A stretch of DNA of 25,958 nucleotides from Amoebophrya sp. AT5.2. Lineage: Eukaryota > Sar > Dinophyceae > Syndiniales > Amoebophryaceae. The number at the start of each line of letters is the position of its first letter. Within the stretch, counting starts at the first letter, position 1. Below, piece by piece: positions 4,088-24,850 of the stretch. The stretch spans positions 1 through 25,958 of the forward strand of contig RXOD01004213.1 of NCBI GenBank assembly GCA_005223375.1. Direction: 5' to 3'. The translations under genes and the position numbers were made by a program. A model generated the notes under the pieces. It was given only the letters and a program-made list of their open reading frames with translations, was not told where the DNA came from and made no database searches.

Positions 4088-5915
4088 ATGTCGTGGCGCC
4101 GTCGGCTGTTTAAGTTCTACAGCAGGCAGCTGGAGCGGCGTCCGTACACCACAAACACCATCGCCGGCGCGGCACTTGGATGCCTCGGCGACGTGGTCTG
4201 TCAGTATGGGGTTGAGGGGAGACGGGAAATCGACGCAAGGCGGAATCTCGCGATGGCCACCTTCTGCGGTTGGTACCAGGGCGGCGTGGACACCTTCATA
4301 TACGGATTGTACTGCTTGTATGAACAACGCTTATGAGCCTTGCTTGGCTCCTTGATTGCCCATCCACGACGACCCTCTCACACACTTAAACAAAGTGAAA
4401 GTACAAGTTAGAGTATCTAGTTTGTATAATGTTAAAATGGGCCTATCTATGATCCTAGTGCTTACTTTGCCATTCACCATCCAGGTACTCCCGCTTTGGG
4501 CGCCACATGGCTCCCCTTCGGTTCGGGATCGCTTCCGCCCTATTCGACAACTTCGTCCATGTACCGGTCGGATACCTTCCGGCGTTCTACCTCACCCTAG
4601 GCGCCGTGCAGAGCCAGTTATGACGGGAGGACCACGACCAGCTGCTGGTAAGAAGTGACTAAAGCGGTATTCAGTTGTGAGTATAATTGCTATGTGTTGA
4701 TGGGGCCGCCGGGTAGGGGTACGGGATTTCGGGGCCCCGTACAACTTCGTGTGTCCTCGGGGGACAGGAGGTCTGCAGTAGACGTAGAGGTAAGAAGAAA
4801 GCAGGCGGCCTTCCGCGTTGCATAGGCCTAAGGACACGCACCCGCCATCTAGTACTGCAGTCTACAGCTGGCAAATAAGGGTCGCCAATCTAGTTCTAGA
4901 ACAGAAGGAAGAAGAATTGCAGAATGCCCTTCCCTCCCCCTCTCACAACAATGGTCCCACGGCGTCGGGAGCGAGGACCCCGCCGCTATAATTCTTGCCG
5001 TTGCCACGTCAAATAGTATGGCGCGCCGCTTCAGAGCCGCCCCCTATGCTTGCGCCAGGCGTTTTCGATCGCCTATAGTCGGTGCTCGCCAGCGCCACCT
5101 GCTAAGTGAACCCGTTACGCTCCACTTGCCGGTTGCTGCTCACGACATACTAACTTACTTTCTTTAAAGTGCTTAGTCGCCACCAGCTGGTCCCCTCATA
5201 CCAGTCGTGGGAGGAAATAAAGCGCGAGATGCGCAACACCTACTTCCAGTCGTGGGCGGCCTGTTGCACGATGTGGGTCCCGTTCCAGTTTGTCAACTTC
5301 TATTTCATCCCAGAGCGATTCCGTGTGCTCTTCGTCAACTGCGCGTGCCTGGTGTGGAACGTTATCATCGACTACATAAACCACCGTGGCGCTGGTCCTG
5401 CTGTAGCGGGGGTCGTGGGGGGCGTCGAGCCTCATCATAAGAAGGATAAGCAGATATTGATAGACGACCAGGACCACCACCACGTCCACGACCACGAGGT
5501 CGGCGAGCATGTTAGTGGCCGCGAGTGGGAGAAAGGCCGCATGCTGGACAGCCGTACGGCTGCCGCGGTCGCGGAGGTCGTGCAACTACATCAAGTGCCA
5601 GATCCAGCCGCAGGGCCACGAGGGGGAGAGCGGCCGTGGGAAGATAATGAAAAGAACCACGATCGCTCTGCTCTTCATTCCCGTCAAAACCACCGGGACC
5701 GGGAGCTCTCTTCTGAATCGCATTTATCTATACCGCCCGGGCCGATGAATCCCAGTATTGAGGAGGAAGTTCTTGATCCGGACGACCCGCTGCCGCGACG
5801 AATACTTCTACGCGCGAGCAAAAGGACTTTCTCGCAAGGACGAGGCAATGGTCGTGGTCATGCCTCTCCTTCTGGCGACCACCATGAAGAAGAGCAAGAG
5901 GAGGAGGAGCCGTGA
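4088..5915 (+). CDS. Mpv17/PMP22-family integral membrane protein
   Basis: Three exons are modelled: 4088-4317, 4485-4616 and 5177-5915 (366 residues). The sequence follows the Mpv17 family in order: an N-terminal RRPYTTNTIAGAALGCLGDVVCQ; then GWYQGGVDTFIYGLYCL joined to YSRFGRHMAPLRFGIAS; then ALFDNFVHVPVGYLPAFYLT; then WVPFQFVNFYFIPERFRVLF and CLVWNVIIDYINHRG, the usual family end. Members are four-helix proteins of the inner mitochondrial or peroxisomal membrane, reported as channels or metabolite-transport factors. The first junction (TT|GTATGA ... CCAG|G) is phase 2 and restores an uninterrupted family alignment. The second, phase 2 at 4617/5176, is one of several frame-keeping options. 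About 170 residues follow the normal family end, rich in His, Asp, Glu and Arg (HHHVHDHE, EEEQEEEE). Translation starts at ATG 4088. The family is secure; the organelle is not determined. Confidence 0.88.
4318..4484 (+). other. Intron 1 of the Mpv17-family gene
   Basis: Starts GTATGA, ends CATCCAG, phase 2, 167 bp. Removal joins YGLYCL to YSRFGRHM in the conserved middle of Mpv17. The first three bases of the intron (GTA) also follow the acceptor, so the exact cut is fixed only by the GT-AG rule. Confidence 0.8.
4617..5176 (+). other. Intron 2 of the Mpv17-family gene, with a TACTAAC branch-point motif
   Basis: A gap of about 560 bp with stops lies between two clearly homologous exons. A perfect yeast-type branch-point sequence TACTAAC sits at 5148-5154, 15 bases before TAAAG (5169) and 22 before TTAG (5176). 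The model GTTATG to CTTAG is phase 2. A donor at 4606 paired with the acceptor at 5186 (phase 0) also works. The strong-looking GTAAGA at 4647 lies beyond an in-frame stop and cannot be the donor in this frame. Confidence 0.6.
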
Positions 5916-8751: not shown

Positions 8752-11477
8752 TTTTTTTACTACCAGCTCCACCAAGACCATGACCACCACCACCATCAGA
8801 GGGTGGAGGTGGTGGGATCGATTTGCATCACCAATACTCACAGCCGTGGCTGCCTTTCGGCGTCTTGCGAATTCCGTTACACCCCATGGGGTTGCCTGTA
8901 CTCTCTTTGACTCGCGGTCAACCGAGGAGGTAGGAAGACGACCAGTCTCCCCTTCAGAGGGAGAGCCGGATTTTCGACGACGATGACATGTAGTACTTTC
9001 ACCATAGTAGTGGTCCTCATGTTCATCGGCCGGTGTTCTGGTCGAGGCGTGTCCCCCGACTCGTTCTGCTTCTCGTGTCTTCGGTCTGGGTCCGCTGCGC
9101 GTTTGTTCGTGGGCTTCGTGATCGATGTCGGGGCCAGACCGGGGGGAAGCCACTTTCTCCCCCACAAACGCCCAGAGAGCCCCCAGAAAAACTAGCCCTA
9201 GGAGGGGAGAGCTGTGCGCGGCAGGCCGAGTCATCGATCACTCTTGTTCATTGACGGACTACTACCGCTCGGCATCCCCATCCTTCATCCCTTTCGCTCT
9301 CGCCTTTTCGGCTCGCCTTTTTGGCGTTCTTTTTCTTCTTCTCGTTTTTTCTCTTCGTTCCTACCTTTCTCGCGCGGACCATCTACGGGAAAAGAAATCA
9401 CAATCATTCATCGGCCATCAGGCATCATTCATTCTCCAGATGAGTTGAATTTGTTTCATACTCTTTCTGGTTTTCTTGTGCGGTTTTGTTGTTCGCGTTT
9501 TTGCTTGTGCTTCTGGTTGGTTCCCCTTCATGCCTACGCACGGCGTCGGGATCAACATCATAGGTGAGGTCACTTCCGAGTGGCCCGCCTGGGATGCGCC
9601 ACCTCATCCCCACTCTAGCGCCGTTCCCTCACCTCCGCATCCCCCTCGGCGTACGCGCAAAGCCGTCCAGTTCTTCCAGAATGCACTGCTCGCGTTTCCG
9701 CTGTCTTCCTCCCGTTTTCGGCTTGGTCCTTCTACGGTGGGTTCGGTTCCCTTCTCCCTTTCGCCCGTCGCGCTGCTCCTCCTCCCGCTTTGTTCGTCCT
9801 CTGCGTTGTGTCCTTCTTGTCCCGTCTCGGCTTCGCTCCTCCCGTCGGCTCCGCTAGACGTGTCTTGAGATCCACCCGGCGCGTTCTTCCACGACCTTGT
9901 CTGTCACTGTGGACTCCTCGCGCTTCTTGGTCTGCTTCGCCGACACGAACTTGATCCTCTCACTCTCATTGAAGTTTTTTGGGCCATCTTCGTGCTCGTT
10001 GAGTGGGGCTTCACCTTGGGGAGCTATTTCCCCCACCTCGGCCCCACTCTCTGGCGCCTTCTCAGGCACTTCCGTGTCTTCTACCTGCCCAGCAAGGAGC
10101 TCGCCTACTGATGGGGGCAGTATGCCCTGTGGGACCTCTTTCGCGCAGAGCGCGAGGAACTTCAGCACCTTCGATGGGCTGTTCTTTATGAAGGCGGCTC
10201 GGTCTTCCAGACTCACTCCGCCCCCCGCGAGATGTTCTGGGAAGATATCCTTCCTGATTCTCTCGAACGCGCCTTTTGCGCGGCAGCTGAACAGGAAGTG
10301 GTCACACGAGGGCACCGCCGGGATTTCGCAGAATGGACATTTCATGACCGGGACTGCCCCTGTCTTCCTGTTTCCGTGCTGTACGGAGGCCATCCCCAGT
10401 TGTCCCGGGTATGGGCATCCCAGCCAGACCTGGAAGAGTACTCTGTCCACCGCCGGGGGGATGTACGTCTTCGGTCGGTACGGGCCCAGGAGGGCCGCGC
10501 GTCGGGTCAGTTCCGGATGGGCTGACGACCTTTCGTACGCTGCTAACACCTTCGCGCGAATGATCCGGCGCAGAATGGGCGCAGTGAGTATCTTCTTATA
10601 CATCGCCCGCCCCCGCATTTCACCCACTTCGTGACACAAGCCCTGTGTGGCCATGTAGTCAGCGTAGTCATTGAATGGGTTGGCCATGTGTCCAGGAGTC
10701 CATCGGAACTCAAACACGACGCCCGGGCTGCGTGCCCTTTCCATCTCTTCGAGGCTTCGCACGATCATTATGACCAGCGGGCTGCTTTTGTCGTTGAAAG
10801 CATCCAACGCCTGCAGGAGCCCATTGGCATCCACATAGAAGACTATCTTCTTGACCGTCTTGAGGATCATTGGGGACATGCTGGTCCTCATCTGCTCGCA
10901 GTGGTGCACTATCGCGAATCCTTCGCCATCAAAGGAGTCCGGGTCGGCGCCAGGAATGTCCGAGTACACTCCGCAGCACGACGCCCACTGCGGGGTGGGG
11001 GCGGGGGCTTCAGGGTCTGGCGGGAGGTACCACGACACTCCGCCACCCGATCCGCGACTCGACTCTGGATCTGCCCCCCCATCCGTGGCCACCACTAACG
11101 TATCAGGATCTTCGAGGTCCTTCCTCGCTAGTTCGCAGTTGATCGTCGAGATCTTGGCCCGGGCCTTATCTACTTCTTCCTGTTTCTTCATCTGACTGAT
11201 GGGGGCTATGCCATTCCTTTTGGCCATTTTGTCCATATGCCAGACCACCATGTTGACTCCGCGCCAGTACTTCCGACCGAAGTCCAGGTTACGCGCGGCC
11301 TCTGAGATCTTCTCGAACTCTTCCGAAAGCGCAACTCGGTTGAGGCGGTGCGTCCATGGTTCAGCGCAGTACTCCCACGAAATTGAACAAAATGAAAACC
11401 ACGCACACAAAATAGCAGCTCCTGGGAAAGCGTTGCGCGGGCGACTGATGAAAACGACCGGAGCCAGCAGGTCTGTT
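8752..11477 (-). mobile_element. 5'-truncated non-LTR (LINE-type) retrotransposon
   Basis: The core is an RNase H plus zinc-knuckle ORF on the minus strand (9854-11476). Reverse transcriptase and everything before it are missing, the usual result of incomplete target-primed reverse transcription. Possible ends: a 7-T run at 8752-8758 (a short A tail on the minus strand), with CATTGTTT at 8747-8754 and again at 11478-11485 as candidate target-site duplications. The ORF is open exactly up to the right-hand copy. Between the ORF and the T run lies about 1.1 kb of purine-rich (minus strand) putative 3' UTR with no coding signal. The RNase H type with a C-terminal C-x2-C-x9-H-x4-C knuckle suggests an RNase H-bearing LINE lineage (I/Tad-like). 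The boundaries are inferred and the LINE identity is firm. Confidence 0.65.
9854..11476 (-). CDS. LINE ORF2 C-terminal remnant: RNase H domain and zinc knuckle
   Basis: The frame is open from 11476 down to TAG at 9856-9854. There is no convincing start: the first possible initiator is TTG at 11410, as expected for a truncated polyprotein. Counting from 11410, the RNase H catalytic set is visible: Asp110 in VVATDGGAD, Glu163 in DGEGFAIVHH, Asp194 in FYVDANGLLQAL, and His241 and Asp251 in WTPGHMANPFNDYAD. These lie between about 11100 and 10640. A zinc knuckle, CPFC with His371 and Cys376, follows at about 10339-10285. The tail is acidic then basic. In an intact element this part removes RNA from the cDNA hybrid after reverse transcription. 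No fingers/palm motif (YADD type) is present, so the copy cannot mobilise itself. The intact ORF suggests a fairly recent insertion. Confidence 0.9.
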   Translation of the reverse strand, partial: TDLLAPVVFISRPRNAFPGAAILCAWFSFCSISWEYCAEPWTHRLNRVALSEEFEKISEAARNLDFGRKYWRGVNMVVWHMDKMAKRNGIAPISQMKKQEEVDKARAKISTINCELARKDLEDPDTLVVATDGGADPESSRGSGGGVSWYLPPDPEAPAPTPQWASCCGVYSDIPGADPDSFDGEGFAIVHHCEQMRTSMSPMILKTVKKIVFYVDANGLLQALDAFNDKSSPLVIMIVRSLEEMERARSPGVVFEFRWTPGHMANPFNDYADYMATQGLCHEVGEMRGRAMYKKILTAPILRRIIRAKVLAAYERSSAHPELTRRAALLGPYRPKTYIPPAVDRVLFQVWLGCPYPGQLGMASVQHGNRKTGAVPVMKCPFCEIPAVPSCDHFLFSCRAKGAFERIRKDIFPEHLAGGGVSLEDRAAFIKNSPSKVLKFLALCAKEVPQGILPPSVGELLAGQVEDTEVPEKAPESGAEVGEIAPQGEAPLNEHEDGPKNFNESERIKFVSAKQTKKREESTVTDKVVEERAGWISRHV

Positions 11478-11756: not shown

Positions 11757-11950
11757 AGCTGCGGCCTGTGCGCAGACTTAAGTTGGTCCGAGCCCCTATG
11801 GCTATGACGGTTTAGGCCGGCGCTCAAGCACGTTAATAAAGCCCGGGCTTGGCTGCAGCTCTAACTCCGTTAAGGCTTAGACTTTACCCTAACTGTTGAC
11901 TCATTCGTGTAACGTAAGCGAGGTTCGGAGCCCGCGAATTCTCCCAGCGA
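11757..11950 (+). repeat. Structured dispersed repeat, copy 1
   Basis: It shares a 51-base core (11781-11831) with 22174-22224, differing at 4 positions, then CGTTAAGG (11868-11875) and a second block, 11910-11939, matching 22335-22364 at 24 of 30 positions. Ends of the core region pair: GCTGCG (11758-11763) with TGCAGC (11854-11859), and CCGAGCCC (11788-11795) with GGGCTTGG (11845-11852). It lies about 120 bp upstream of the EF-hand gene start on the same strand. It could be a SINE, an independent ncRNA gene or a 5'-UTR/promoter element. Confidence 0.7.
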
Positions 11951-17756: not shown

Positions 17757-19688
17757 ATGTTTAACCGGTCGGCCGCTCTTTTCGCGAAGAAGTTCGACGT
17801 GGTGGTGGTCGGCGGTGGTCCTGGCGGGTATGTGTGTGCGATCAAGGCTGCGCAGCTGGGGCTCTCCACCGCCTGCGTGGAGAAGCGCGGCGCGCTCGGG
17901 GGCACCTGTCTGAATGTGGGGTGCATTCCGTCGAAGGCCCTGTTGCACGCCTCCCACATGTACCACGACGCCACGCACTCCTTCAAAAAGCAGGGCATCA
18001 AGCTGAACGGCACCCTGGAGGTGGACGTCCCGGCGCTGATGAAGCAGAAGCAGAAGTCCATTACGGGGCTCACCCGCGGGATCGCCGGCCTCTTCAAGGC
18101 GAACAAGGTCGAGAACATCGCGGGGGCGGGCTTCTTCAAGGGCCCGAACCTGATCGAGGTCACCAACGCGGACGGCTCCAAGGAGGACATCGAGGCGGAC
18201 AACATCGTGGTCGCGGTTGGTAGCGAGGTCGCGGGACTGCCCGGGTTCCCCAAAGAACTCATCGACGAGAAGGACATCGTCTCCTCCACCGGCGCGCTCG
18301 AGTTCGGCGCCGTGCCGCAGTCGCTCACCGTGGTCGGCGGCGGCGTGATCGGGCTCGAGCTCGGCAGCGTGTGGTCCCGCCTCGGCGCCAAGGTGCACGT
18401 GGTCGAGTTTTTGAACAAGATCATGGGCCCCGCCGACACGCAGGTGTCGACGGAATTCCAGAAGATCTTGAAGAAACAGGGCCTCACCTTCGACCTGAAC
18501 AGCAAGGTGGTCGACGTGAAGAAGGTCGCGGGCGGCGTCGAGCTCACGTGGGAGAACAACGAGACGAAGGAGAAAACCACGCAGGTGTCGGAGAAGGTGC
18601 TCATTTCCACCGGCCGCATCCCCAACACGGCCAACCTGGGCATGGAGAACCTCGGGGTCACGCTCGACCGCGCCGGCCGCATCCCGGTGAACGGCCATCT
18701 TATCACCGAGACCAACGCCAACGTGTACGCGATCGGCGACTGCATCGCCGGCCCCATGCTCGCGCACAAGGCCGAGGAGGACGGCGTCTACATCGCCGAA
18801 CAGATCGCGGACAAGGTGAAAAACGGAGGCGCTCCCCCGAAAGCGGAGCCGATCTCGTACCACGCCGTGCCCTCGGTGGTGTACACGTTCCCGGAGGTTG
18901 CCTGGGTGGGCAAGTCCGAGGACGAACTGAAGAAGGAGGGCGTCGAGTACAACCTGGCCGTGTTCCCCCTGGCCGCCAACAGCCGGGCGCGGGCGAACGA
19001 CGAGGCGCAGGGAATGGTCAAGCTGATGACCAGCAAGGACGACAAAATCCTGGGCTGCCACATCATCGCGCCGTTCGCGGGAGACGTGCTCATGCTATGG
19101 CCCATGCGACACCACTGCGATGGTAAGAGGTCGAAAAAGCTCTGCAGTAGTGACGCAGGAGAAAAATAAAGGCGGCTTTCCGCATCCGCCTGATCGGCAG
19201 CCCATTGCAGCTCGTCGACAGCCTCCCGGTCCCGCTGTTGACGCTATTAGACTGTCACTCCGGTTCCCTCCTGCTCCTTCGTTTCGCCCCGCTTTCATCT
19301 GGCCCTACTACTTACCACGGCTTTCCACTATCGCGCCACCCCTTCGCGGCGCTACCTCCTCCCCATCGCTAATAGCCCCCATCGAAAAATGACAATGGGG
19401 CAGCTCATCTGAATAAACCGCCCGGCGCGAAGCGCCTTCCTTGACGCACAACTCGCCAGCGCCACCCGTCGAGTGCGGATGACCCCCCAGCAGCTAGAGC
19501 TCGCACTTACCACTTCCTTCGCTCACTTACCATCTGGTCTCGCTTCATACATGCCGGCGGTGATGTCCATGCAGTACAACCGGGATTGCAAAGAACTGGC
19601 CCACACCTGCTTCGCCCACCCAACGGTCTCGGAAGCGCTCAAGGAAGCCGCCATGAAGGTCAGCATGGGAAACTTCATCCACATGTAA
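17757..19688 (+). CDS. DLD: Dihydrolipoamide dehydrogenase (E3)
   Basis: This flavoprotein reoxidises lipoamide for the pyruvate, 2-oxoglutarate and branched-chain dehydrogenase complexes and the glycine cleavage system, in the mitochondrion. Exons: 17757-19095 and 19555-19688 (490 residues). Visible motifs: FAD-binding GGGPGGYVCAIKAAQLG (19-35), redox pair Cys51 and Cys56 in GGTCLNVGCIPSKA, NAD-binding VVGGGVIGLELGSVWSRLG, VYAIGDCIAGPMLAHKAEEDG, and the dimer-interface active site FAHPTVSEALKEA supplying the catalytic His and Glu. The first residue of that motif is usually His and here is Phe. The N-terminus before the FAD site is only about 12 residues (MFNRSAALFAKK): basic and hydrophobic, but short for a mitochondrial presequence. 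The coding frame is broken at 19096-19554 by an insert; removing it gives AGDVLMPAVMSMQYNRDCKE, exactly family length. Codons are strongly G/C-ending, more so than in neighbours, suggesting high expression. Confidence 0.95.
19096..19554 (+). mobile_element. Introner-like non-canonical intron with TIRs and CATGC duplication
   Basis: A 459-bp unit splits the DLD codons between GDVLM and PAVMS. CATGC stands at 19091-19095 and again at 19550-19554. Deleting one copy plus the insert gives a protein of exactly the length conserved in DLD. No register of the cut gives GT-AG; one register gives AT-AC but without U12 consensus. The ends are imperfect inverted repeats: TATG, GCGA, ACCA and GATGGTAAG occur in this order from the left (GATGGTAAG at 19119-19127) and, reversed, from the right (CTTACCATC at 19526-19534). 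The insert has an in-frame stop (TAA 19167), so it must be removed from RNA. A duplicated target with inverted termini is the signature of a DNA-transposon-like introner. Confidence 0.75.
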
Positions 19689-22147: not shown

Positions 22148-22375
22148 CTGCTGTGGCATGGTGCGCAAACTATAGTTGGTCCGAGCCCCTATGGCAATGA
22201 GGGTTTAGGTCGACGCTCAAGCACCGCTAATTAAACCCGGGTTTGGCTACAGCAGTAGTTAGCTCCTTACTTTATTTACTTTTCCTATTTGGCTACCTTA
22301 CCTTACCTTATTTGGCTTACTTGGCTCGTTAAGGTAACGTATGCGTGGCTCGAAACCCGCTAATGAACCCGCGAC
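22148..22375 (+). repeat. Structured dispersed repeat, copy 2
   Basis: Homologous to 11757-11950. Stem GCTGTG (22150-22155) pairs with TACAGC (22248-22253); compared with copy 1 a C-G pair has become T-A. CCGAGCCC (22181-22188) pairs with GGGTTTGG (22239-22246). The two conserved blocks are separated by a longer spacer here, with CTTACCTTACCTTA repeats. It lies about 180 bp upstream of the TRM13-like start on the same strand. Confidence 0.7.
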
Positions 22376-22555: not shown

Positions 22556-24850
22556 ATGGGCGGCCAACGCGACTCGGATGCAGTGGTCCAAGTCGCGCAG
22601 GCGGGTCCGACCTCCGCTTCGGCTCCAGCGGAATTGGGTGTCAGACCCGGCTGCACTTCGTCCGCAGAGGCAGAAGTGGTGCCGAAGCCGATTGATAAAG
22701 TGGAGCAGCTCGTCGAGCCCAACTTCGGTACGAAGCAGGAGGCGAAGCGGCAAGCGAAGCGCGAGATGAAGAAAATCGCGCGTCGCGAAAAGCGATCGAA
22801 GATTCGGTACGATGCGGTCGAGCGCGTGGCAGATCTCTTCGGTTGGGAGGACCTCGGCGGGGGGTGCGTTCAGCAGCCTGACAAGAAAGGCGCGGCGAAC
22901 AGCATCAACAAAGTGAGGGACCTTGCGGCACTGCAGCAGCTCCCCCCCCACGAGCGGGAGGCGGCGAAGCTAGCCTTCATCCGCGAGCGGGAAGCACGGA
23001 AAAGGAGGGAGCCGGTAACCGAGGAGACGCTGGAGGACGTCCGGAGACGGGTGCTGAGCTACTTCGGATTCGAGGAGGGTGATCGTGATGTTACCAATTA
23101 CGTGGAGGACCTCCATGGTCATGGACGAGACTCGGTCGTCAAGATGACGCCCAGAAAGCAGGACCAGCTGCAGGAGGAGCGTGCTGCCCACACCCCTGAA
23201 ACAACGACAAAAGGAAGTCGAACTCGAAGTTGTGCTTCTGGTGGTGTGCTGCGCTCACGACCGTCCTCCCAACGATCATCTTCGTCAGTCAACGAGCCGG
23301 ACCACGAGGAGAGATCTCCTGCTGCCAAAGCCAAATCGTCAAAAATAAAACATAAACATCACGCGCAAGATGAAATCATGTCGGCAGCATCTTCATCGAA
23401 GCAGGCTGCGTCACAACAGGACGAGCAGCAAACAGTTGACGGCTGCTCTTCAGCGTCCTCTTCCAGCACGACAGCGCCATCACGGCCGTACACTCCTTAC
23501 CGCAAACTGCCGCAGGAGTTCACTTCCGCCTCCACTCTTGATTTCGTGGAACGCTTTTTTTCCCGCGGCGAGCACTATTCCCAGAAATTCTCACCGCAGG
23601 AGGCTTCTCTCCTCGAGCAGCTGGCAAGGCTCAACGCCGACGGGGAAACGATTCTGATCGACCTCGGCTGTGGTAACGCCACGCTGGTGCTGCTGGCGAG
23701 TTTGGTCTTCGGCAGCTACGCGATCGGTGTGGACCGGCGAACTCCGCACGTGAACTGCCAGGGGGAGAAATACTTCCCGGAGAACAAATTTCCGGAACTG
23801 AAGTTTTCGCGCATCGAGCGGTGCGTCTCCGACTGCTTGGCCGACGTGGTTGCGGCGATTTTGAAGGCACAGCTTGGGCGGTCGACTGGGCATTTGGAGG
23901 ACGATCTGGCAAATCTGAAGCAGCTGTTTTCAGGGTCATCCACATCCAGTAGGCTGGAAGATGAGCAGGCCGACGGAGGAGCGGACAGGGCTGGAATAGA
24001 GAGACGGTCTTCGTACACGAAAATCATCGTTTTGTGCAAGCATTTGTGCGGCGCAGGCACAGACTACTGCATTCGCTTCATGGAGGAGCTCGCGAAAACA
24101 GGGCTTCCTCTGACCGCCGCCGTCTTCGCTACCTGCTGCACGCACAAAATTTCCACTGACCCTCAAAACAAGGACCTGCCGTTTTTCCTCGACTACTACA
24201 AACACCAATCCGTCGCGCTCCGGCTTGGCACCGACGAAACCTTGACATTGTTAGATGAAGAAGTAGCTGGTCCTCAAAGTGAGCAGGCTACGGCTCGTCT
24301 TCCTTTCGATGATGGCGACGACGTAGTGTGCGAACCGTGTGGACGCGAGGTTGGCGGAGCTGCAGCTGTGGGGGCACCACCGGCTGATGGTGCTCGAAGT
24401 AGAAGTACTGGATATGGAACAAGTGGAAGAGGAGTGTTTTTTAGTCCCCGGACACGGTCGCGGTTTGCGCAGCTGTGTCGATGGGCAGCTTGGCGGAACA
24501 CGCAACAGAGCGCGGACTCGAAGTTGGGCGAAGAGCACATCTACGTAGCGGAGGTGTGCGATGACGTGGTGCAGGGACTCCGCATGGAGAAGCTGCGCAC
24601 CTTCTTCCCCAAGGTACACCAAATCGTCTACGTGCCGCTGGAAAACTCGATGCAGAACCGAGCGATCGTGTGCGAGTCCACCGCTGTAGCACACGAAGAT
24701 CACGAGGACGAACCCCACGTTCGCTTGGGGGCTGCTTGCTGGAAAAGCCGCCTGGCGACACTGCTCACGAGTGTCGCGAAGAGACACGCGCCCCACCTCC
24801 CAGTGAAACTGGCGGCACACGATCTGTATGCAAACGCGGAAGGAATGTAA
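22556..24850 (+). CDS. TRM13-like tRNA 2'-O-methyltransferase
   Basis: A single 764-codon exon. The Rossmann methyltransferase starts near residue 335. Motif I is ILIDLGCGNATLVLLASL (about 366-383), followed by YAIGVDRRTPHV, the SAM-ribose-binding position. The family hallmark CKHLCGAGTD is at 494-503 (KHLCGxxTD in TRM13), and FATCCTHKIS (Cys527-Cys528) corresponds to the family CC-H-H motif. TRM13 enzymes methylate the ribose of tRNA acceptor-stem position 4 using S-adenosylmethionine. The usual N-terminal CCCH and CHHC zinc fingers are not visible. Instead there is a basic helix (KRQAKREMKKIARREKRSKI) and a Ser/Gln-rich linker (about 210-320). Low-complexity inserts also lie between motifs (about 455-485 and 575-620). 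The start ATG 22556 is the first with good length. The methyltransferase call is firm; the exact substrate is family-based. Confidence 0.78.
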   Translation: MGGQRDSDAVVQVAQAGPTSASAPAELGVRPGCTSSAEAEVVPKPIDKVEQLVEPNFGTKQEAKRQAKREMKKIARREKRSKIRYDAVERVADLFGWEDLGGGCVQQPDKKGAANSINKVRDLAALQQLPPHEREAAKLAFIREREARKRREPVTEETLEDVRRRVLSYFGFEEGDRDVTNYVEDLHGHGRDSVVKMTPRKQDQLQEERAAHTPETTTKGSRTRSCASGGVLRSRPSSQRSSSSVNEPDHEERSPAAKAKSSKIKHKHHAQDEIMSAASSSKQAASQQDEQQTVDGCSSASSSSTTAPSRPYTPYRKLPQEFTSASTLDFVERFFSRGEHYSQKFSPQEASLLEQLARLNADGETILIDLGCGNATLVLLASLVFGSYAIGVDRRTPHVNCQGEKYFPENKFPELKFSRIERCVSDCLADVVAAILKAQLGRSTGHLEDDLANLKQLFSGSSTSSRLEDEQADGGADRAGIERRSSYTKIIVLCKHLCGAGTDYCIRFMEELAKTGLPLTAAVFATCCTHKISTDPQNKDLPFFLDYYKHQSVALRLGTDETLTLLDEEVAGPQSEQATARLPFDDGDDVVCEPCGREVGGAAAVGAPPADGARSRSTGYGTSGRGVFFSPRTRSRFAQLCRWAAWRNTQQSADSKLGEEHIYVAEVCDDVVQGLRMEKLRTFFPKVHQIVYVPLENSMQNRAIVCESTAVAHEDHEDEPHVRLGAACWKSRLATLLTSVAKRHAPHLPVKLAAHDLYANAEGM

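Follow-up and report, generated by a model that had tools for sequence, protein, structure and literature searches.

The DLD and Mpv17-family genes

The window (the whole 25,958-nucleotide stretch analysed, from Amoebophrya sp. AT5.2) of this marine parasite contains a dihydrolipoyl dehydrogenase (DLD) gene, which belongs to core metabolism, at 17757-19688 and an Mpv17-family gene. The DLD gene is interrupted by a 454-bp element with CATGC on both sides, and a sister element lies in the Mpv17-family gene (Table 1). Twenty 10-kb stretches sampled from the assembly have a GC content of 56.9%, and the proteins are nearest to those of Amoebophrya A120 among named genomes. The window also holds a 764-aa open reading frame with a match to TRM13 methyltransferase (22556-24850; E 3.7e-8) and, on the minus strand, a 518-aa open frame without a Pfam match at E 0.001 (9857-11410).

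Table 1. Coordinates of the features of the two interrupted genes in the window.
Feature	Position	Strand	Remark
Ordinary GT-AG intron, Mpv17-family gene	4309..4484	+	removal required to obtain P0121
Mpv17-family exon 5' of sister introner	4485..4618	+	matches P0121
Sister introner, target-site duplication copy 1, CCAGT	4614..4618	+	direct repeat
Sister introner, Mpv17-family gene, 582 bp	4619..5200	+	exact removal gives P0121, 299/299 residues
Sister introner, target-site duplication copy 2, CCAGT	5201..5205	+	direct repeat
Mpv17-family last exon	5206..5915	+	matches P0121; Pfam
DLD coding sequence 5' of element	17757..19095	+	ends with first CATGC; 85% identity to A120 protein P0002, residues 1-446
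DLD target-site duplication copy 1, CATGC	19091..19095	+	direct repeat read in window
Putative introner element in DLD, 454 bp	19096..19549	+	G-type end first, gene sense
Terminal inverted repeat (TIR), 5' arm	19096..19130	+	GGTAAG at 19122-19127
Alternative frame-preserving GT-AG intron wholly within DLD element	19123..19497	+	leaves 28 extra residues
Terminal inverted repeat (TIR), 3' arm	19515..19549	-	CTTACC at 19526-19531 on + strand
DLD target-site duplication copy 2, CATGC	19550..19554	+	direct repeat read in window
DLD C-terminal coding part 3' of element	19555..19688	+	stop TAA 19686-19688; 37/44 residues identical to A120; GC3 84%

The repeat unit in DLD, made up of the element and one CATGC, is 459 bp long. 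Its termini are imperfect inverted repeats that have the blocks TATG, GCGA-ACCA and the 9-nt GATGGTAAG in common. As RNA, the 40-nt arms pair at -27.0 kcal/mol, a value equalled in 3 of 1000 shuffles of the letters (shuffle mean -14.9). Folding of the whole insert is no better than that of shuffles (z 0.64).

As it stands in the window, the open frame of DLD is interrupted. Excision of the element with one CATGC restores a frame of 490 aa. Among the matches listed for the joined protein, the best named one is an Amoebophrya A120 protein, also of 490 aa (85%), followed by one from A25 (78%); a 490-aa DLD from the same species is absent among these 120 matches. The alignment to A120 has gaps at residues 360 and 489 alone and is gap-free at the junction (446/447). 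Identity to A120 is 378/445 before the junction and 37/44 after it, and GC3 before the element is 92%. When A120, A25 and six other full-length DLDs are aligned, none has an insertion at the junction site. There are six possible cut registers, of which none is GT-AG and one is AT-AC.

These results agree with an earlier sequence-only reading of the locus, which described a CATGC-flanked 459-bp unit with imperfect inverted ends, whose exact deletion restores DLD and which has no GT-AG register. That reading mentioned neither the AT-AC register nor the frame-preserving GT-AG pair inside the element. It also named an uninterrupted DLD elsewhere, combined with a lack of further copies of the termini, as a finding that would count against it. 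With the A120 DLD as query, the assembly (50.7 Mb in 2759 contigs, and possibly incomplete) returns the window gene in two pieces and otherwise one partial match, 37% identical; no other close DLD locus is found.

The Mpv17-family gene contains both an ordinary GT-AG intron and the sister element. When both are removed, as they must be to obtain P0121, the predicted protein equals P0121 in 299/299 residues. This sequence is the top database match of the joined protein and carries the labels MMETSP0795, Amoebophrya and taxid 88552; the MMETSP label denotes a transcriptome project. All cut pairs were tested with a first intron base at 4561-4700 and a last one at 5140-5259. P0121 is obtained from only six of them, which are the registers of the CCAGT duplication (CC-TA, CA-AC, AG-CC, GT-CA, TT-AG and TA-GT), and GT-AG occurs in none of the six. 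With the element retained, the protein stops after 64 residues. The joined protein matches the Pfam family Mpv17_PMP22 (residues 42-100 to profile positions 2-60), and the match spans the junction, which lies at residue 46. The assembly contains no other close Mpv17 locus; the next best matches there are 32% and 27% identical.

The sequence-only reading proposed that the DLD element is removed at its duplication. At the Mpv17 sister copy this proposal is supported by P0121, which appears to be transcript-derived and fits only removal at the duplication, but could also stem from a strain that lacks the insertion. In the case of DLD, the conservation of the protein suggests removal. The isolated Mpv17 arms pair as RNA with 2/1000 shuffles as good, and the whole insert folds no better than shuffles (z 0.12). 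The GT-AG intron at 4309-4484 also has a short direct repeat (4 bp, GTAC) at its boundaries.

The element family across the genome

A full-length search with the DLD element matches only the element itself in the assembly, so its termini are needed as queries. The terminus TATGNNNGGACCAGNTGGTAAG, with up to 3 mismatches, occurs 1185 times (608 + 577), compared with 23 times (11 + 12) for the reversed pattern. The terminus GCGAGACCAGCGATGGTAAG, which is nearer to the DLD copy, occurs 149 times (74 + 75), compared with 4 (1 + 3) for its control. In this Amoebophrya genome the family numbers hundreds of copies. Many terminus matches lie a few hundred bases from contig ends, as if the repeat broke the assembly, and contig ends truncate 9 of the 30 fetched loci.

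An unbiased scan of 226 kb for 5-bp duplications adjoining inverted 4-mers gives three matches with TATG, namely both window elements and one in locus L007, and the termini of all three are related. The top 4-mer of the scan, AGGT, was set aside; 16/18 of its matches lie in one local repeat array (L002).

The 30 loci fetched from TATGNNNGGACCAGNTGGTAAG matches comprise 15 paired copies, 4 second arms of those copies and 11 loci without a partner. All but two of the latter (L032 and L040) are cut by a contig end. Most fetched loci were chosen because one arm fitted the consensus, and the sample is not random. Together with L053, L055 and L056, the 15 two-armed loci make up a set of 18 arm-paired copies, in which the duplication was ignored in pairing. 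Their flanks agree at 5/5 positions in 10 copies, at 4/5 in 5 and at 0-3 in the other 3, which are L045, L053 and L055 (one copy each at 3, 1 and 0 positions). In the positional profile, flank agreement is 78-89% at five positions and 6-44% at the 15 positions around them. The target-site duplication is 5 bp long, as this profile of the flanks shows.

A larger set of 25 copies omits L053 and includes, in addition, L007, the two window copies and five copies chosen partly by their duplication. In this set the copies are 293-582 bp long (median 454), with flanks that agree at 5/5 positions in 16, at 4/5 in 7 and at fewer in 2. Three loci (L025, L038 and L049) have more than one possible right arm, and the arm with the duplication was chosen. 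Both arms of L026, L028, L033 and L045 fit the 22-nt pattern with 0 mismatches. Copies of the family span 293-600 bp. A candidate 6.6-kb autonomous copy on contig C289 was rejected, since a separate partner for its right-hand end lies at a distance of 531 bp, with a perfect duplication; at its left-hand end, an arm in the opposite orientation follows at 600 bp, with flanks that agree at 3/5 positions.

Two end types, A-type and G-type, occur in the family. In a comparison of the interiors of 18 copies, the Mpv17 copy among them, many pairs match, with the four best pairs reaching 82-89% over 248-395 bp. No interior match to another copy at E 1e-3 is found for the Mpv17 and L036 copies, so their membership rests on their termini. 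The DLD copy matches other fetched copies in stretches of 17-49 bp only. The DLD, Mpv17 and L036 elements are thus either diverged or belong to subfamilies that are little sampled.

In the first 60 nt of both arms, GGTAAG occurs 63 times pointing inward and 0 times outward in the 25-copy set (50 and 0 in the arm-paired set). Whole-insert RNA folding is better than that of shuffles in the well-preserved copy L033 (z -4.7). The copies' own arms pair better than swapped arms (10/2000 permutations as good), a comparison that is confounded by the unequal ages of the copies.

The family conforms to the earlier description of the DLD insert as a transposon-like introner with a TIR and a target-site duplication, in that the termini recur genome-wide far above control. 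Many further copies exist with differing 5-bp duplications, as a proposed search for other copies anticipated. The donor-like GGTAAG noted there in both orientations is present inward in both arms. The description of the gain as recent is not upheld, given the short matches of the DLD copy and the much longer ones of the four best pairs.

Gene-sited copies and the position of the cut

Ten copies were assigned to genes with a readable frame: DLD, Mpv17, PKA-R, PKD2, SPC25 (locus L038), helicase, GT7, a polycystin-domain gene, L048 and L036. For the last two, which have no Pfam match, gene sense was assigned by visual inspection. A GT-AG register within the duplication is found in 0/10. There is no in-frame GT-AG pair within 15 nt in 6/10; such a pair is present in Mpv17, GT7, L048 and L036, with the loss of one codon in L036.

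The joined PKA-R and PKD2 proteins align to solved structures, gap-free at the junction. The joined SPC25 protein has no match among solved structures; at the junction it is colinear with its homologues P0126 and P0127. For the helicase, the alignment to WRN, a distant homologue, passes the junction by six residues with no gap. Pfam matches are found for 6/10 joined proteins, one of them (the polycystin domain) below the curated cut-off. Those of GT7 and the polycystin domain do not span the junction, and that of the helicase begins two residues past it. In an open-frame test of 18 copies, a weak test, exact removal gives the longest frame in 9/18 when compared with two shifted controls, and the window copies are not among the 9. 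The order of the ends, typed by the fifth base in gene sense, can be read in 7/10 copies. The A-type end is first in three (PKA-R, polycystin and SPC25) and the G-type end in four (DLD, PKD2, helicase and L048).

The DLD insert is very probably a non-autonomous TIR introner that made a 5-bp duplication on insertion and is removed from RNA at that duplication, leaving the protein unchanged. The strongest alternative is canonical splicing within the element, in which the GGTAAG of the 5' arm serves as donor, an AG close to the 3' arm serves as acceptor, and arm-encoded residues are kept. The DLD element does contain a frame-preserving GT-AG pair that would leave 28 residues, and introners that add codons are known in Aureococcus (accessible text of PMC9860276). 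One gene model, P0125 (eukprot g2537.t1), keeps to the SPC25 sequence of L038 through the junction but includes 36 extra residues from both arms (L038 1501-1929). These arise via a GT-AG pair internal to the element, as a canonical spliceosome would use it. However, the frame of Mpv17 and PKA-R hits a TGA stop at element nt 5, ahead of GGTAAG, and P0121 is without arm-encoded residues. The A120, A25 and six other full-length DLDs likewise lack an insertion at the site, and the extra residues are missing from the SPC25 homologues P0126 and P0127. Because of these homologues and of the Mpv17 protein, which has no such retention, P0125 may be an artefact of a GT-AG-only gene model. Canonical splicing within the element is unlikely.

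Excision from DNA at some life stage is far less probable still. The internal eliminated sequences (IESs) of ciliates have terminal inverted repeats and are excised precisely at a short direct repeat, and the anatomy here is alike. Against this, the elements are present in this genome assembly, and those of A25 and A120 were detected as introns by RNA-seq junctions on assemblies, according to the accessible text of PMC7789003.

A reading of the DLD copy as a disabled pseudogene holding a plain transposon is highly improbable; its interrupted frame would allow this, but the assembly has no other close DLD locus, and the downstream part of the window gene is as conserved as its upstream part, with high GC3, despite the diverged element. 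An AT-AC intron of the minor spliceosome can practically be dismissed, since an AT-AC register occurs in 3/10 copies (DLD, helicase and PKA-R) but not in the other 7/10, and minor-spliceosome snRNAs are reported absent in A25 and A120 in the accessible part of PMC7789003.

Known systems and a possible mechanism

Repeated non-canonical introns are already known in Amoebophrya, as the sequence-only reading stated. The accessible text of Farhat et al. 2021 (PMC7789003) describes introner elements in A25 and A120 with inverted repeats of 8-20 nt and direct repeats of 3-5 nt, in 252 and 1954 families, respectively. These introners resemble the elements here in being non-GT-AG, with terminal inverted repeats, 3-5-nt direct repeats over the exon boundaries and repeated families. 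The A120 repeats begin with TAT, as do the elements here. In contrast, the A120 motifs are described in the same text as ending in at least 3 A, whereas the terminus here is approximately TATGNNNGGACCAGNTGGTAAG and the duplication is 5 bp. The TIR introners with target-site duplications of other protists (Gozashti et al. 2022, PMC9860276, accessible text) also have transposon-like ends. Their splice sites lie in the element, the duplication or the neighbouring exon, and in most families removal leaves the mRNA length unchanged; here, GT-AG lies in the duplication in 0/10 copies.

The class is thus already known in Amoebophrya, and what is new is another family in another genome of the genus. 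The elements have the conserved TIR and the fixed-length (5-bp) target-site duplication of MITEs. They also have the inverted repeats, 3-5-nt direct repeats, repeated family and non-GT-AG ends of Amoebophrya introners, the last in DLD on the assumption of exact removal. They differ from canonical GT-AG introners, which have GT-AG at the element or duplication and leave the mRNA unchanged. Strain AT5 is cited as predicted canonical in the accessible text of PMC7789003, and that of a 2024 review (PMC11453091) repeats an AT5 figure of 99.98% canonical (GT-AG). A 2025 paper on another strain (PMC12005148) suggests, in its accessible part, that only some members of the genus have odd introns. None of the terms looked for occurs in a 2026 review of non-canonical splicing (PMC13149111), and among the accessible papers no report of this family and no re-examination of AT5 was found.

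The following sequence of events is proposed. A short TIR element would insert in the DLD coding sequence and make the 5-bp duplication. The DLD copy would be removed like its Mpv17 sister, with removal acting on RNA and not on DNA. The two TIR arms would pair and bring the exon ends together, and the base of the stem, rather than GT-AG dinucleotides, would set the cut. Both end orders occur in genes, so a one-way signal inside the element is unlikely, and a symmetrical signal such as paired arms would be simplest.

A similar process has been described in animals. In SOS splicing, DNA transposons with inverted repeats are reportedly cut from the mRNA of C. elegans and human cells by pairing of their TIRs, with no GT-AG, as with the elements here. 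SOS splicing is said to be a rescue system that requires RtcB. By contrast, the copies here lie in ordinary genes of an assembled genome, and the RtcB ligase domain (PF01139) has no match in the assembly, although an incomplete assembly or an intron-split gene could hide one; 9/14 control genomes have a match. Trl1-type ligase has no match in any genome, controls included. Hairpin-guided use of the spliceosome and use of some other cutter are about equally probable.

As RNA, the element has ACUUACC in its 3' arm and GGUAAGU in its 5' arm. The former has the letters of the 5' end of U1 snRNA, and the latter those of the U1 target. The inward GGTAAG copies may be subterminal repeats bound by a transposase, or a masked donor. 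No U1 snRNA was detected in A25 or A120 according to the accessible text of PMC7789003, and a U1-70K homologue is present in A25 according to that of a 2026 review (PMC12787238). A U1 snRNA search of the present assembly gives no match, but the U2 control failed likewise (18.4 bits, E 4.16). The U1-C protein domain is present in the assembly.

A broader proposal is possible but doubtful. It holds that paired TIR arms are the splicing signal and that the cut falls at the base of the stem whatever the dinucleotides or orientation, so that any insertion is instantly an intron. The element could then mask or replace U1 recognition in cis. Such introns would be wider in the genus than reported and, as P0125 suggests, would be hidden in genomes whose gene models allow GT-AG only, perhaps also in the one published as 99.98% canonical.

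The accessible text of Farhat et al. (PMC7789003) raises the question of how thousands of introns that lack GT-AG are spliced in one genome. The window is a compact test case, as its Mpv17-family gene combines an introner with an ordinary GT-AG intron, and both have to be removed to give a transcriptome-labelled protein. With its 5-bp duplication, two distinguishable ends and both orientations in genes, the family allows the hairpin, the arm sequence and the orientation to be compared as possible signals. Gene models restricted to GT-AG, apparently including P0125, may add transposon-encoded residues to proteins and hide introners.

The window contains other repeats. Two similar stretches at about 11785-11860 and 22165-22250 (TTGGTCCGAGCCCCTATGGC...GGTTTAGG) appear by eye to be copies of another repeat. 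At the contig end (25390-25958), also by eye, AT-rich repeats are followed by GC-rich repeated units, the last letters of which are GGGAGTGGGTGGGCAG.
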